Assembly (NCBI GenBank): GCA_020431405.1
Contig: JAGQIK010000453.1
Coordinates: forward strand, 1 to 32,548
DNA length: 32,548 bases
Origin: Myxococcales bacterium
GTDB lineage: Bacteria; Myxococcota_A; Polyangia; GCA-2747355
Reading direction: 5' to 3'
The position numbers were made by a program, and so were the translations under genes. Position 1 is the first letter of the stretch. Each line of letters begins with the position of its first letter. Of the stretch, positions 4,792-17,254 are shown one piece after another. The notes under the pieces were generated by a model that worked only from the letters and a program-made list of their open reading frames with translations, was not told where the DNA came from and did no database searches.

Positions 4792-6063
4792 GTGGGAACC
4801 CTCGGACTTGTGGGCGTTCTCGTGGGCGCGCTCGGCGTGGTCGCGATCATTTACGCCGTGATGCAGAAGCTCAAAGCTGGACGCCTCGCCAAAACCCCGT
4901 TCGCCAAAACCGGTGACGTCGCCAACAACGGCGCCGCCGTCAGCGACCCCAAGGGCGCCGTATCCGTCGAAGGACAGGTCAACTGTCCGCAGCCGCTGAT
5001 CGCGCCGGCCTCGGGCCGCGAGTGCCTGTACTACGAGCTCAAGGTCGTGGGCGAGTGGAAGGACGGCGACGAGAAGAAGAAGAAGGACTACGTCGACGAG
5101 AAGTGCGCCGCCGGCTTCACCCTCGACGACGGCAGCGGCGCCGTGTTGATCGACGCGCGCGAGGGCGGCGACTTCGACGAGGAGACCAGCTACGACGAGA
5201 CCAAGAAGGAAGGCTTCTTCTCGGATCTGCGCGCCGCCGTCGGCAGAGAGAAGCCGATCATGTTCGGCAACTACGAGTTCTACTCGGGCGTCAGCAAGGC
5301 CAACAAGTTCACCTGCACCGAGACGATCGTGCCCGTGCAGCCGAAGCTGTTCGCGCTCGGCGTGCATCGCGAAGGCGTGATCACCGCGCCCAAGTGGCGT
5401 TCGCTGATCCTGTCCACCAAGGGCCGCGACGCGCTGATGGGCTCGACGGCGAAGGCGGCGAAGTTCTCGTTCATCGGCGGCGGCTCGGCCGTCGGCGTGG
5501 GTGCGATCCTCGCGGTCATCGGCCTTCTGATCACGCCGGCCAAGGCCGACATGCCCGCCAAGGACGCTCCGCCCCCCACGGCGGCGATCGGCGCGGCCAA
5601 GGCCACCGAGAAAGCCGCCGCCAAGGAAGCCGACTCGGAAGAGCGCAACGAGAAGCGCGCCAACGCGCCCGCGATGCGCCTGCACCGCCTCAGCAAGTGG
5701 CACCTCTCGGTGCGCGCGCCGCTCAGCGCCACCATCACCACCAGCGGCTCGCGCTCGGCCAGGATCAGCGCCGGCGGCTGCGACGTGCAGTTCCACCGCA
5801 TGCCGCGCTTCATGCGCACGCGCATGTACAAGACCTACAAGGGCGTCTCGGAGCGCGACTCGCACCTGGTCAAGTGGAACGACAAGGAGCTGACCAGCCG
5901 CGGCTTCGTGCTGAGCTCGAAGCTCGACTACTCGAGCATGAAGGTCACGCGCCTCTACACGGGTCGCGTCATCGGCCGCAAGCTGTTCGTCTGCTCGGCC
6001 TTCGCGCGCAACGCCTCGCAGGCGGCCTGCCAGCGCTCGGTCTGTGACTCGCTGAGCCGCTGA
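4792..6063 (+). CDS. GIDE/BAM-domain membrane protein (MUL1-like, no RING)
   Basis: The GTG start has a clear AGGAG at 4781-4785. The 423-residue product has a first membrane helix (4-24), then a GIDE/BAM domain (PF12483) at about 50-215. The family signature is visible: EGQVNCPQPLIAPASGREC followed by YYELKV (60-85). A second helix lies at about 225-247. This helix-BAM-helix layout matches the mitochondrial ligase MUL1/MAPL, but the C-terminal RING of MUL1 is absent. In its place is an Ala/Lys/Glu-rich linker (250-295) and a basic C-terminal region of about 130 residues with five Cys (330, 400, 410, 415, 420 approximately) that I do not recognise. Database labels of 'E3 ubiquitin ligase' for such proteins rest on the BAM domain alone, so ligase activity should not be assumed. 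It likely forms a unit with the next gene, 17 nt on. Confidence 0.82.
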   Translation: MGTLGLVGVLVGALGVVAIIYAVMQKLKAGRLAKTPFAKTGDVANNGAAVSDPKGAVSVEGQVNCPQPLIAPASGRECLYYELKVVGEWKDGDEKKKKDYVDEKCAAGFTLDDGSGAVLIDAREGGDFDEETSYDETKKEGFFSDLRAAVGREKPIMFGNYEFYSGVSKANKFTCTETIVPVQPKLFALGVHREGVITAPKWRSLILSTKGRDALMGSTAKAAKFSFIGGGSAVGVGAILAVIGLLITPAKADMPAKDAPPPTAAIGAAKATEKAAAKEADSEERNEKRANAPAMRLHRLSKWHLSVRAPLSATITTSGSRSARISAGGCDVQFHRMPRFMRTRMYKTYKGVSERDSHLVKWNDKELTSRGFVLSSKLDYSSMKVTRLYTGRVIGRKLFVCSAFARNASQAACQRSVCDSLSR

Positions 6064-6080
6064 CGTTAGACTGCCAAGCG

Positions 6081-6785
6081 ATGGACGCTTGGCAGTTTCT
6101 GAGCGAAGCCTTCGGCGAGCTGCCGTGGCAACAACAACCGCCGACCGAACGCGTACGCGAGGATCATCGCGCCACGCTGCTGGTCGGCGGTTTGGTTTTT
6201 CAGATCCGGCGCACCTACCAGCTCGTCACGAGCGGCACCGGGCGTGGCAGCAGCTATCTACGCTGGCGCACCGAGATCACCTACCCCTACGCGCCGCGCC
6301 CGCTGCTGCTGATACTGCCGCGCAACCACATCGCCTACGCGCGCATCCCCACCGGCGACGCCGAGTTCGACAAGCGCTTCCGTCTCTCGGGCGCGCCGCC
6401 CGAGATCTTGCGGCGCGCCTTCGACGAGCCGCTGCGCAAGCGGCTGCTGGCCGGGGCCGGGCGCTGGCGTCTGGTGCCGACGGCCGAGGGCAAGGCCTTC
6501 AGCATCGACGTCGAGTCGATCATCGAGCAAGGCGCGACGCCGGCCGAGCTGCGCGAGGTGCTCGACCTGTTCGCGCTCGTCTGTCAGCGCATCGTCGGCG
6601 AGTACGACAGGGCCCACGCCGAGGCCAAAGCGGCGGGGCCGCAAGCCGAGGCCGCCTGGGTCGAAGCGCAGAAGCTGGCAGCCGCCAACGCCAAGCGCGG
6701 CGCCATGGGGCTCAAGCTCGCGATCCTCGGCGCCGGGGCGCTTTTGATCATCGGCCTCGTCGCGCTGATGGCGCTGATGTTCTAG
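6081..6785 (+). CDS. Tail-anchored membrane protein of unknown function
   Basis: I do not recognise a family for this 234-residue protein. Its first 130 residues are predicted mixed alpha/beta and soluble, with runs such as FQIRRTYQLVTSG and PRPLLLILPRNH. Residues about 150-205 are helical and rich in Ala and Glu, and the last 22 residues are one hydrophobic helix ending at the stop. This suggests C-terminal anchoring with the bulk in the cytoplasm. It starts 17 nt after the GIDE-domain gene and ends 3 nt before the stop of the convergent glycosidase gene. A TAGACT hexamer at 6067-6072 could allow separate transcription with a very short leader. Partnership with the GIDE protein is inferred from position only. 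Confidence 0.72.
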   Translation: MDAWQFLSEAFGELPWQQQPPTERVREDHRATLLVGGLVFQIRRTYQLVTSGTGRGSSYLRWRTEITYPYAPRPLLLILPRNHIAYARIPTGDAEFDKRFRLSGAPPEILRRAFDEPLRKRLLAGAGRWRLVPTAEGKAFSIDVESIIEQGATPAELREVLDLFALVCQRIVGEYDRAHAEAKAAGPQAEAAWVEAQKLAAANAKRGAMGLKLAILGAGALLIIGLVALMALMF

Positions 6786-14304: not shown

Positions 14305-14835
14305 GTGGTGTCTACCGGTGGAGAGCGTGGTGAGCGGCAGCGCCTGACGCGGGAGCTGTTCGACAAGCACTCTGCGCTCATCTACAGCAAGTGCCTGAGA
14401 ATGCTGGGCAACCGAGAGGACGCCGCCGACGCGGTGCAGGAGACGTTTACCAAGGCCTTTCGTGCGCTGGAGCAGGCGCGCGAGGTCGAGAGCCAGCTGG
14501 CGTGGCTATTTCGAATCGCCACCACGACGTGTCTGAACATGATCCGTACGCGTGAACGCAAGGGCGCGGTGCTGCTCGACGAGGTCTCGAGCGTCGTCGC
14601 CCACGGCCAGCAGCATCCGCTCGACGCGATGCAGCGGCAGCGCGTGTTCGACGCGCTCTCGGCGCAGTGCGACGAGCGTACGCTCGAGATCTTTGTCGCG
14701 CACTTCGTCGATGGCATGGACCAGGGGCAGATCGCGGCGCAGCTCGGCATCTCGCGCCGCGCGGTGGTCAAGCGCCTGACGCGCCTGCGCGAGCTGGCCA
14801 AGGCGATCTATCGCAGCGAGGTCGGTGAGCCGTGA
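14305..14835 (+). CDS. ECF-type RNA polymerase sigma factor
   Basis: A 176-residue sigma-70 family protein with only regions 2 and 4, as in ECF factors. Region 2 spans about 19-83 with the RMLGNREDAADAVQETFTKAF core; region 4 spans about 112-170 with the helix-turn-helix QIAAQLGISRRAVVKRLTRL. It directs RNA polymerase to a small regulon, which commonly includes its own operon. GTG at 14305 and GTG at 14308 are both possible starts. It overlaps the anti-sigma gene by four bases (GTGA), the usual coupling that lets sigma and inhibitor be made together. Region 4 has Arg-Arg-Ala-Val-Val-Lys where typical ECFs have Glu-Gly-Thr-Val-Lys, so its promoter specificity is probably unusual. Confidence 0.9.
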   Translation: MVSTGGERGERQRLTRELFDKHSALIYSKCLRMLGNREDAADAVQETFTKAFRALEQAREVESQLAWLFRIATTTCLNMIRTRERKGAVLLDEVSSVVAHGQQHPLDAMQRQRVFDALSAQCDERTLEIFVAHFVDGMDQGQIAAQLGISRRAVVKRLTRLRELAKAIYRSEVGEP

Positions 14836-15698
14836 CGGACCGCGAGCAGCACATCGGCTTCTTCGGCCTCGGGCAGTATCTCGCCGGCGAGCTGTCCGAA
14901 ACGCAGGCGCAGCGCGTGGCGGCGCACCTCGAGACCTGCGAGGCGTGCGCGGCGCAGCTCGCGCAGATCGAGGCCGAAGGCGCGGCCTTTAGCGCGCTGG
15001 CAGAAAAGACGTTCGAGGCAGCCTTCGAAGCGGCGAGCGTCGAACAGCAGCCGGCAAAGCCCTCCTCGCGCGCGCGCCAGCCGTGGCGCTGGCCGAGCTG
15101 GCTCAAGATCATGGTGCCCGTCGCCGCGGCCGCGCTCGTCGCCGCGATCGTGATCCCGCGCCTCGTCGCGCCACCTCCGCGCAACGGCGGCGCTGGCGGC
15201 GCGGGGCCTGGCTCGACCTACGTCGCCTACAAGGGCACGCTGGCGCTGCAGGTCGTCGCCAAGCGCGGAGAGCGACAGTTCATCGTCAAGCCCGCGCAGC
15301 GCATGTGCCCGGGCGACGCGCTGCGCTTCAGCATCACCGCCGCGTGGCCGACCACGCACGTGCTGATCGTCTCGTTCGACGCAGCCGACGCGCTGTCGAC
15401 CTTCTATCCCAACGCCTCCACCCCGCGCGACGCGCTCTCACCCGCGGGCAAGACCATCGCGCTCGACGGCAAGGGGCGGCACGTGCTGCCCGGCAGCATC
15501 GTGCTCGACAACACCGAGGGGCGCGAAGTGATCGTCCTGCTCGCCGCGCCTAGGCCCTTCGAGACCGAGGCGCCGCGCGCGCGCATCAAGCAGCTGCTGC
15601 TGCGCGATCGCGGCGCCGCCGCCACGCTGAGCGCCGCCAAGCTGGGCTTTGGCGGCGTGGTGCGCGCGCTGGCGATCAGCAAGGCGTCGTGCAAGTGA
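14832..15698 (+). CDS. Transmembrane zinc-finger anti-sigma factor with DUF4384-like sensor domain
   Basis: This 288-residue anti-sigma factor starts with the ZAS/zf-HC2 motif: His32, Cys36 and Cys39 in AAHLETCEACAAQ (HxxxCxxC). One membrane helix lies at about 92-112. The outer 170 residues contain GDALRFSITAAWPTTHVLIV and FYPNAS with VLPGS further on, a pattern like DUF4384, a beta-sandwich often found beside caspase-like proteins. The N-terminal domain would hold the ECF sigma factor inactive at the inner membrane, and the outer domain would sense a signal outside the cytoplasm. It overlaps both neighbours by GTGA, so sigma, anti-sigma and caspase form one translationally coupled unit. The DUF4384 assignment is by eye and needs a profile search. 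Confidence 0.87.
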   Translation: MTDREQHIGFFGLGQYLAGELSETQAQRVAAHLETCEACAAQLAQIEAEGAAFSALAEKTFEAAFEAASVEQQPAKPSSRARQPWRWPSWLKIMVPVAAAALVAAIVIPRLVAPPPRNGGAGGAGPGSTYVAYKGTLALQVVAKRGERQFIVKPAQRMCPGDALRFSITAAWPTTHVLIVSFDAADALSTFYPNASTPRDALSPAGKTIALDGKGRHVLPGSIVLDNTEGREVIVLLAAPRPFETEAPRARIKQLLLRDRGAAATLSAAKLGFGGVVRALAISKASCK

Positions 15699-17254
15699 AG
15701 CGCTTCGCGCTCGCCCTGCTCGTCCTCGCGGTCCTCGCGACGCCCGCGCGCGCCGAGGTGCAGCGCTACGCGATCATCATCGGCAACAACATCGGCAGCA
15801 AGCGCCGCACCCCGCTGCGTTTCGCCGAGTCCGACGCCAAGAAGATGTTCGCCGTGCTCACCGCAGCTGGGCATTTTTCGCAGCGCGATACCGTGCTTCA
15901 CCTCGGCGCATCGGCCAACGAGGTCTGGCAGAGCCTACAGCGCACCGAGCGCACGCTCGAGCGGCGCGCGGCCAAGGGAGCTGCCCGCTCGCTGCTGCTG
16001 ATCTACTACTCGGGGCACGCCAGCCGCACCGCCCTCGAGCTCGGCGCGAGCACGCTGCCCTTCGCCAAGCTGCGCGCGTTCATCAAGCGCTGCAAGGCCA
16101 CCGTGCGCGTAGCGGTGATCGACGCCTGCCAGAGCGGCCAGCTCGTCGCGTCCAAGGGCGGCACACCCGGGCCGGGCTATCGCATCTCGTTGGCCGATCA
16201 CATGTCGTCCAAGGGCTACGCGATCATCACCTCGAGCACCGAGAGCGAGCTCAGCCAAGAATCGGCCGCCGTGCGCGGCTCGACGTTCACGCACCACTTT
16301 GTCTCGGCACTGCGCGGCGCCGCCGACGACTCGGGCGACGACAAGGTCACCCTCGACGAAGCTTATCGCTACGCCTACTCGCGCACGGTGGCACACACCG
16401 CCGCGCAGCTCGGCGGCGGACAGCACCCGATGTACGACTTCAAGCTTTCCGGCCGCGGCGACATCGTGCTCACGCAGCCCAAGACGCTGCGCTCCGGTCT
16501 GCGCTTTCGCGCGCGCCGCGGCGGCCGGCTGCTGGTGCTCTCGAAGGACCGCGAGCGGGTCATCGGCGAGTTCGCGGCGCGAAGCGGCGCGGCGCTGCGC
16601 GTGGCGCTGCGACCGGGCGACTACTGGGTCTATCTCGTCGCACGCCGCAACGTGCTGCGCGGGAAGGTCTCCGTGCGCGCCGACCAGCTGCAGGACCTCG
16701 GCGAAGCCGCGCTCTCGCGCTTCACGCCGCGCACCAGCGTCGCCAAGGGCGGCCTCTTCGCGCCAGCGCCGATGCATCGTGTCTCGGGCGGCTTTCTCGT
16801 GCGCCGCATGCCCCTCGACGGCGCCGTGCTGGCCTTCGGCGGCGCGCTCTCGTACGGCATCGAGTTTCCCAACGACCTGCAGCCGGCGATCACCATCACC
16901 GCCGCGACGGCGCCCGACGCGGGCCTCTCCGAAGGCTACTTCGAGGTCGGCGCGCATCTCGGCGCCAGCTACACCTGGCTGCGCGCGTGGCGCCAGCGTC
17001 TCGCCTTCTACGTCGAGCTTCGCGCCGGCTACGAGCTGCTCGGCCAGGCCAAACGCGACGACCAAGCGCGCTACACCTCGAGCTTCAGCTACTTCGGCGG
17101 CGCCGGCGTGCGCTTTCCCATCGCCTCGCGCCTCGGCGCGCAGATCGGCGGCGGCGCCGGCGGCAGGCTCTTCGAGCTGCGCGGTCAGGGATGGCAGCAC
17201 CGCCTCGATCTGCAGGCCGTCGCCAGCCTGCTGTGGCAGTGGAGTTTTCGCTAG
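15695..17254 (+). CDS. Secreted caspase-like (C14) protein with barrel-like C-terminus
   Basis: The 519-residue product has a signal peptide (1-21, ending ATPARA), then a caspase-fold domain to about residue 255. The dyad is visible: His108 in YYSGHAS and Cys145 in VIDACQSGQ, followed by TSSTESELSQES and TFTHHFVSALRG. Residues 260-360 form a small beta-rich region with LRPGDYWVYLV. Residues about 370-519 alternate polar and hydrophobic in short strands rich in Gly and Tyr, suggesting an outer-membrane or periplasmic beta-barrel. Arg/Lys-directed cleavage is the family norm. It starts by GTGA overlap with the anti-sigma gene; GTG at 15689 is an alternative. The stop shares CTAG with the stop of the convergent gene. 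Such proteins usually act in the cytoplasm, so an exported one is odd. Confidence 0.87.
   Translation: MKRFALALLVLAVLATPARAEVQRYAIIIGNNIGSKRRTPLRFAESDAKKMFAVLTAAGHFSQRDTVLHLGASANEVWQSLQRTERTLERRAAKGAARSLLLIYYSGHASRTALELGASTLPFAKLRAFIKRCKATVRVAVIDACQSGQLVASKGGTPGPGYRISLADHMSSKGYAIITSSTESELSQESAAVRGSTFTHHFVSALRGAADDSGDDKVTLDEAYRYAYSRTVAHTAAQLGGGQHPMYDFKLSGRGDIVLTQPKTLRSGLRFRARRGGRLLVLSKDRERVIGEFAARSGAALRVALRPGDYWVYLVARRNVLRGKVSVRADQLQDLGEAALSRFTPRTSVAKGGLFAPAPMHRVSGGFLVRRMPLDGAVLAFGGALSYGIEFPNDLQPAITITAATAPDAGLSEGYFEVGAHLGASYTWLRAWRQRLAFYVELRAGYELLGQAKRDDQARYTSSFSYFGGAGVRFPIASRLGAQIGGGAGGRLFELRGQGWQHRLDLQAVASLLWQWSFR

Follow-up and report, generated by a model that had tools for sequence, protein, structure and literature searches.

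The locus studied here raises the question of why a bacterial gene for a protein with the core of a eukaryotic mitochondrial ligase should stand 17 nt ahead of a gene for a tail-anchored protein, and whether the two belong together. The window, that is, the whole stretch of 32,548 nucleotides that was analysed, is contig C242 of a host genome of 11.2 Mb that is 95.7% complete. On its forward strand ORF A (4792..6063; 423 aa, GTG start) is followed by ORF B (6081..6785; 234 aa, ATG start), and each comes from a family of bacterial membrane proteins about which little is understood. Both appear to be genuine genes; their coding scores were 139 and 58, respectively, with our own codon-usage gene caller, which was also used for the genes outside the window, and by eye a purine-rich, Shine-Dalgarno-like AAGGAG precedes the GTG of ORF A. 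A sodium:solute symporter gene lies upstream of ORF A in divergent orientation, and a glycoside hydrolase gene and a PmbA/TldD peptidase gene lie downstream of ORF B in convergent orientation; the pairing of ORF A and ORF B is not explained by any of these neighbours. The genomes sampled were 377 of the phylum, 240 of the class and four of the order (the host's own included), and transmembrane (TM) segments were located by a hydropathy scan.

ORF A had been described beforehand as a MUL1-like GIDE/BAM protein that lacks a RING and has a helix-BAM-helix layout, and both points were borne out. Residues 107-237 matched PF12483 (GIDE) with an E-value of 4e-8 and 33.3 bits, above the cut-off of 23.6, and Pfam scans detected a RING neither in the whole of ORF A nor in its C-terminal part, the latter being free of other Pfam domains too. 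The predicted BAM domain (about residues 50-210; 4939..5421, forward strand) lies between two predicted TM segments, TM1 (about residues 6-24; 4807..4863), which is followed by a K/R-rich stretch, and TM2 (about residues 232-250; 5485..5541); their hydrophobic stretches start at residues 6 and 232, and the structure model has helices at 3-34 and 212-247. That model, made with 20 sequences in the alignment, reached a mean pLDDT of 73, confident over the TM1-BAM-TM2 core and poor in the tail, and within the BAM block pLDDT was mostly above 90 with dips at residues 91-100 and 141-150. Many of the fold matches of the core were to OB-fold proteins, such as CcmE (Z 6.7, 107 residues aligned, 3.8 Å) and rows for RPA/PolD (Z 5.8-7.0); all of these stayed below Z 8, and unlike membrane proteins ranked higher (top 8.5). 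An OB fold for the BAM domain is suggestive only, and a PDB sequence search with the BAM profile gave no hits.

We class ORF A with the RING-less BAM/GIDE membrane proteins of prokaryotes. It shares the TM-BAM-TM core and PF12483 with MUL1/MAPL/GIDE, the eukaryotic mitochondrial E3 ligase, and differs from it in lacking the RING and in carrying at its C-terminus a variable, probably extracytoplasmic tail. RING-less BAM proteins are the rule in prokaryotes, in bacteria as well as archaea, according to PMC4457424, which also cites Andrade-Navarro et al. Because the BAM protein of ORF A is RING-less, there is no sign of a ubiquitin function; to this extent the earlier suggestion that its BAM domain works outside the ubiquitin machinery holds, and the membrane partner then proposed is plausible from BAM-LemA fusions elsewhere in the phylum. 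At E 0.001, matches were found in 52 of the 377 phylum genomes, the host's own counted, and 21 relatives from 20 loci aligned to the first 250 or so residues of ORF A with 31-56% identity. The host genome holds a second, short GIDE-like protein (L189 3390-4037; 215 aa, one TM).

The side of the membrane taken by the BAM domain was approached through charge and Cys counts. In each of the 22 proteins counted, the 15 residues after TM1 include 3-6 K/R and no more than one acidic residue; the 15 residues before TM2 contain 2-5 K/R and 0-3 acidic residues, being without net positive charge in three of the 22 (L047_8, L050, L051). No charge is present ahead of TM1, but with only a few residues there this says little. 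Tails longer than 30 aa (n=23) all hold an even number of Cys, namely none in four, two in twelve, four in two and six in five, and the cores of 13 of these 23 hold an odd number, although the sequences are related, so that they do not make 23 independent cases, and the L052 tail looks frame-shifted. This sample consisted of ORF A, the first set of GIDE loci and eight proteins selected from the named set, and covered only tails above 30 aa. By the positive-inside rule and disulfide logic, the charge bias and the even Cys counts of the tails suggest that BAM faces the cytoplasm and that the variable tail is extracytoplasmic. Human MUL1 is different in this respect, its BAM domain lying in the intermembrane space (PMC4457424), on the side opposite to that predicted for ORF A.

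The Cys-containing C-terminus, pointed out in the preliminary description, is indeed present: four Cys (330, 401, 413, 418) fall in the C-terminal part of ORF A. A RING-like role for this tail was rejected, as no RING match was obtained by Pfam for either ORF A or the tail. Nor is the Cys-containing end a fixed feature of the family, for it is one of several unlike tails. The tail domain (residues 307-423; 5710..6060, forward strand) is predicted to be extracytoplasmic and may tentatively be called PsbP/Mog1-like from low-confidence fold matches: PsbP, DcrB, CyanoP, Tsi3, PA94 and EagT6/SciW, which we take to share one Mog1/PsbP-like fold, appeared at Z 4.0-5.3 together with a few other rows, with 71-104 residues aligned in a region where the model has a pLDDT of 36-67 by block. 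Homology to the tails of other GIDE proteins was considered and rejected (phmmer without filters, best E 0.17). Kinship elsewhere in the phylum was likewise discarded; matches at E 0.01 occurred in 11 of 377 genomes, the host's own counted, and the best foreign one (E 2.3e-4) crosses four stop codons. Thus the tail, for which a PDB sequence search also returned no hits, has no convincing sequence homologue among the 377 phylum genomes, and in this domain ORF A differs from the other prokaryotic BAM/GIDE proteins, which are RING-less like it.

The same can be seen among the 21 relatives, in which the core is common and the tails are dissimilar. Judged by eye, six of them stop right after TM2 (L044, L045, L046, L047_8, L049, L051), the tail is rich in Pro/Ala in three (L050, L053, L054), beta-rich and with two Cys in six (L047_7, L056, L057, L058, L060, L062) and rich in Cys in three (L059, L061, L063); the tail of L048 looks OB-like, with no such Pfam match for its copy L157, and those of L052 and L055 are of other kinds. 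In the GIDE protein of L161 (6001-7548), the tail gave a weak PPC match (17.1 bits, cut-off 25.9) followed by a tRNA_anti-like one (22.7 bits, cut-off 23.5), both below threshold.

The second gene, ORF B, was confirmed as a tail-anchored neighbour whose start lies 17 nt past the ORF A stop: its only hydrophobic segment by hydropathy begins at residue 215, and the predicted C-terminal anchor covers residues 215-233 (6723..6779, forward strand). No Pfam or NCBIfam match was obtained for it; Pfam returned no family at E up to 10, hence not PF11335 either. A search with the single sequence reached seven of 377 phylum genomes, its own included, and a four-sequence profile reached 55 of 240 class genomes. 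From 20 loci of this family, 18 of 21 profile-matching proteins were aligned with ORF B, the weakest (L147, L149, L150) being omitted. All 18 have a C-terminal TM, some with an N-terminal TM too, and the three omitted proteins are without a C-terminal TM; in L148 no profile-matching gene was called. Three genes of the family stand in tandem in one genome (L134 5880-8392).

Kinship of this family was traced through intermediates. The conserved block of ORF B (GDxxFD....; residues 89-164; 6345..6572, forward strand) aligns with residues 299-374 of L039, an ORF B homologue without a C-terminal anchor, of which residues 293-367 match PF11335 (DUF3137) with E 1.9e-5 and 25.0 bits, below the cut-off of 26.1. 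Comparison of the ORF B family with DUF3137 by hhalign gave a probability of 83.8 (P 7.9e-6) over 56 columns, a short match that stays under 95%. A nine-sequence DUF3137 profile matched seven proteins of the ORF B-family loci, all of which are also matched by the ORF B profile and five of which are tail-anchored; L084 and L093 score above the DUF3137 cut-off and match the ORF B profile as well. ORF B and DUF3137 are alike in a D-x-x-F-D/E-x-x-F block, after which R and L occur at corresponding positions. They differ in that ORF B is anchored at its C-terminus and DUF3137 has hydrophobic segments close to the N-terminus; ORF B also lacks a LemA neighbour and by itself matches nothing in Pfam. 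Of six further tail-anchored members that were scanned, five likewise gave no PF11335 match and one (L135) reached 18.2 bits against the cut-off of 26.1. The host genome itself gave no DUF3137 match at E 0.001. It is likely from these profile comparisons that the mostly tail-anchored ORF B family is remotely akin to DUF3137, and the idea of a family without any known kin was dropped, since the intermediates link it to DUF3137. A structure model of ORF B made without an alignment had a mean pLDDT of 58.5, and its fold matches, none of them at E 0.001, are uninterpretable; the ORF B profile gave two hits in a PDB sequence search (E 0.23 and 0.95).

The pair was then judged by how often the two families meet. 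The two family counts were made on 240 class genomes each, which are assumed to be one sample since group and number agree; GIDE was present in 80, the ORF B family in 55 and both in 23, against 18.3 expected, a weak co-occurrence that is not significant (one-sided Fisher p 0.09). Among these 23, the window alone has the two families side by side, and a single contig carries both in just two genomes, that of the window and G105, the distance in the latter being about 0.5 Mb; many of the sampled genomes are fragmented, which bears on these adjacency counts. No ORF B-family or DUF3137 protein was found in the 20 first-set GIDE loci, the 18 named ones (of which L153, L154 and L156-L160 are the same contigs as seven of the first 20) or 21 further ones, the host's second GIDE gene included; some GIDE loci end at contig ends, as in L045 with 201 bases below the GIDE gene. 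The named loci are mostly labelled Myxococcales, Myxococcaceae, Polyangia, Polyangiaceae, Sandaracinaceae or Sandaracinus. Conversely, no GIDE gene was found in 20 ORF B-family loci.

These counts show that the A-B pair is not conserved in the sampled genomes, in which close relatives are few (four of the order). The preliminary description had suggested that the two genes, if conserved as a pair, may form an envelope-stress or signalling unit, and this part of it did not survive the neighbourhood check; tight spacing and the membrane nature of both proteins speak for such a unit, but adjacency in one of the 23 class genomes with both families makes it very improbable. The same counts lend weight to a rival explanation, in which ORF A has no relation to ORF B, the two came to lie together by accident and each acts alone. 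Their adjacency recurs in no other locus examined, both families are patchy with changing neighbours and the co-occurrence is not significant; we give accidental neighbourhood a considerable probability, if one below even.

The junction itself speaks against accident. The genes lie on the same strand with a gap of 17 nt from stop to start, and folding of the junction revealed a perfect 11-bp hairpin (6070..6096, forward strand) that begins 6 nt after the ORF A stop codon and has a 5-nt loop, AUGGA, beginning with the ORF B start codon. The folding of the junction beat all of 200 shuffles (z -3.41), and a perfect stem of at least 9 bp around the start codon was found for ORF B only out of the 848 genes called across the loci analysed (next best 8 bp), a hairpin of this size thus being absent in the 847 others. 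By eye, ORF B has no obvious Shine-Dalgarno sequence. From these features of the sequence we infer that translation of ORF B may be coupled to that of ORF A through the hairpin. Alternatively the hairpin might serve as a weak terminator, but the terminator scan does not list the site.

A different partner for BAM might lie further downstream, where a cassette of an ECF sigma factor, a zf-HC2 anti-sigma factor and a caspase (14305-17254) stands 8.2 kb from ORF A and could make a cell-fate or stress module with it. Homologues of the three genes (BLAST identity 36%, 25-28% and 37-41%) are found directly beside GIDE in L161 (2984-5768), L162 (7538-10295) and L165 (2939-5852), in two arrangements, and the caspase domain was confirmed by Pfam in these three and in the window. 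Such placement is confined to three of the 18 named loci, however, and the anti-sigma gene of L161 has no Pfam match. In 29 chosen genomes, a subset of the GIDE-positive ones (the host's own, 19 others and nine more), a caspase at E 1e-10 was present in 11 and lay less than 10 kb from GIDE in the window only, the next being about 59 kb away (G503); the host genome alone has ten caspase matches. The link of the cassette to GIDE reflects few lineages or chance, and the cassette is in our estimate unlikely to be the true partner of BAM.

Links were also found with LemA (PF04011). In the order of G153, GIDE is present in 11 of 26 genomes, and nine of these 11, from three genera, have GIDE in one frame with LemA (G153, G016, G036, G026, G148, G210, G195, G098, G075); with the LemA profile no fusion was detected in the other two, G021 and G186. 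Some of the fusions have two BAM stretches with a partial LemA match between them. Six fusion proteins of this order were scanned (L169, L172, L202, L204, L208, L215, with L172 and L202 being one locus), and all passed both Pfam cut-offs. In Lujinxingia vulgaris, one protein combines a BAM-like region with LemA (LemA 112.5 bits; GIDE 14.2 bits, below the cut-off). Coordinates of BAM-LemA fusion proteins include 5809-7056 in L168, 2706-4163 and 4212-5582 in L172, and 5474-7807 in L169. No anti-phage family was matched by ORF A, ORF B or the L172 and L161 proteins at E 0.01 with the PADLOC models.

LemA is tied to the other family as well. It lies directly upstream of DUF3137 in four of nine strong DUF3137 loci (L075, L077, L078, L079; Pfam LemA 147-176 bits); in L076, another of the nine, the contig ends shortly before the gene. 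The LemA profile was built from four of the loci in which it is counted, and their LemA identity was then confirmed by Pfam. BAM-LemA fusions and LemA-DUF3137 adjacency both exist, and BAM, LemA and DUF3137 seem to be connected. Given these two links, a BAM gene beside a DUF3137-like gene fits, here without LemA and in one genome only; that both families are independently linked to LemA also weighs against their being neighbours by accident. The 95.7% complete host genome gave no LemA match at E 0.01. As for the literature, no paper with both terms of a BAM/GIDE-LemA fusion was found among the matches listed for the open-licence PMC literature, a weak negative; in the accessible part of PMC10434189, LemA and DUF3137 stand in separate table rows, and that of PMC11237479 has no mention of LemA, GIDE or DUF3137.

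Taken together, we read ORF A as a transmembrane scaffold or sensor and ORF B as a tail-anchored DUF3137-type protein that is locally paired with it and translationally coupled to it, a reading as a whole to which we give only a shade under an even chance. ORF A would have a very short outside N-terminus, TM1, a cytoplasmic BAM domain, TM2 and a lineage-specific outside tail. A scaffold or sensor would be its most likely role; at a guess, the tail may read an envelope condition or a ligand, and BAM could relay its signal to a membrane partner on the cytoplasmic side, this contact being suggested by the fusions, for in certain genomes elsewhere in the phylum the partner would be LemA, fused to BAM. 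The divergent DUF3137-type domain of ORF B would face the cytoplasm, as BAM would. ORF A and ORF B are probably transcribed as one unit, the latter being translated through coupling at the start-codon hairpin, and their pairing would be local rather than a conserved system. Against this whole reading, it was in three genera within a single order that the fusions were found, and in one genome that the pair was.

A wider and more doubtful proposal, which we would put at well below even, is that BAM, LemA and DUF3137 belong to a single membrane module of bacteria. Its two-TM protein, with a cytoplasmic BAM and an exchangeable extracytoplasmic sensor tail, would cooperate with LemA or, in its absence, with a DUF3137-like protein that is tail-anchored; the BAM domain of mitochondrial MUL1 would then have descended from the module with its orientation reversed.

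What is new here is the likely, remote kinship of the ORF B family with DUF3137, the GIDE-LemA fusions, the predicted topology and the start-codon hairpin. The A-B pair itself is of lesser importance, as the sampled genomes do not conserve it, and the part worth following is the connection of BAM with LemA and DUF3137: the BAM-LemA fusions, the LemA-DUF3137 adjacency and a testable topology offer bacterial partners to study.
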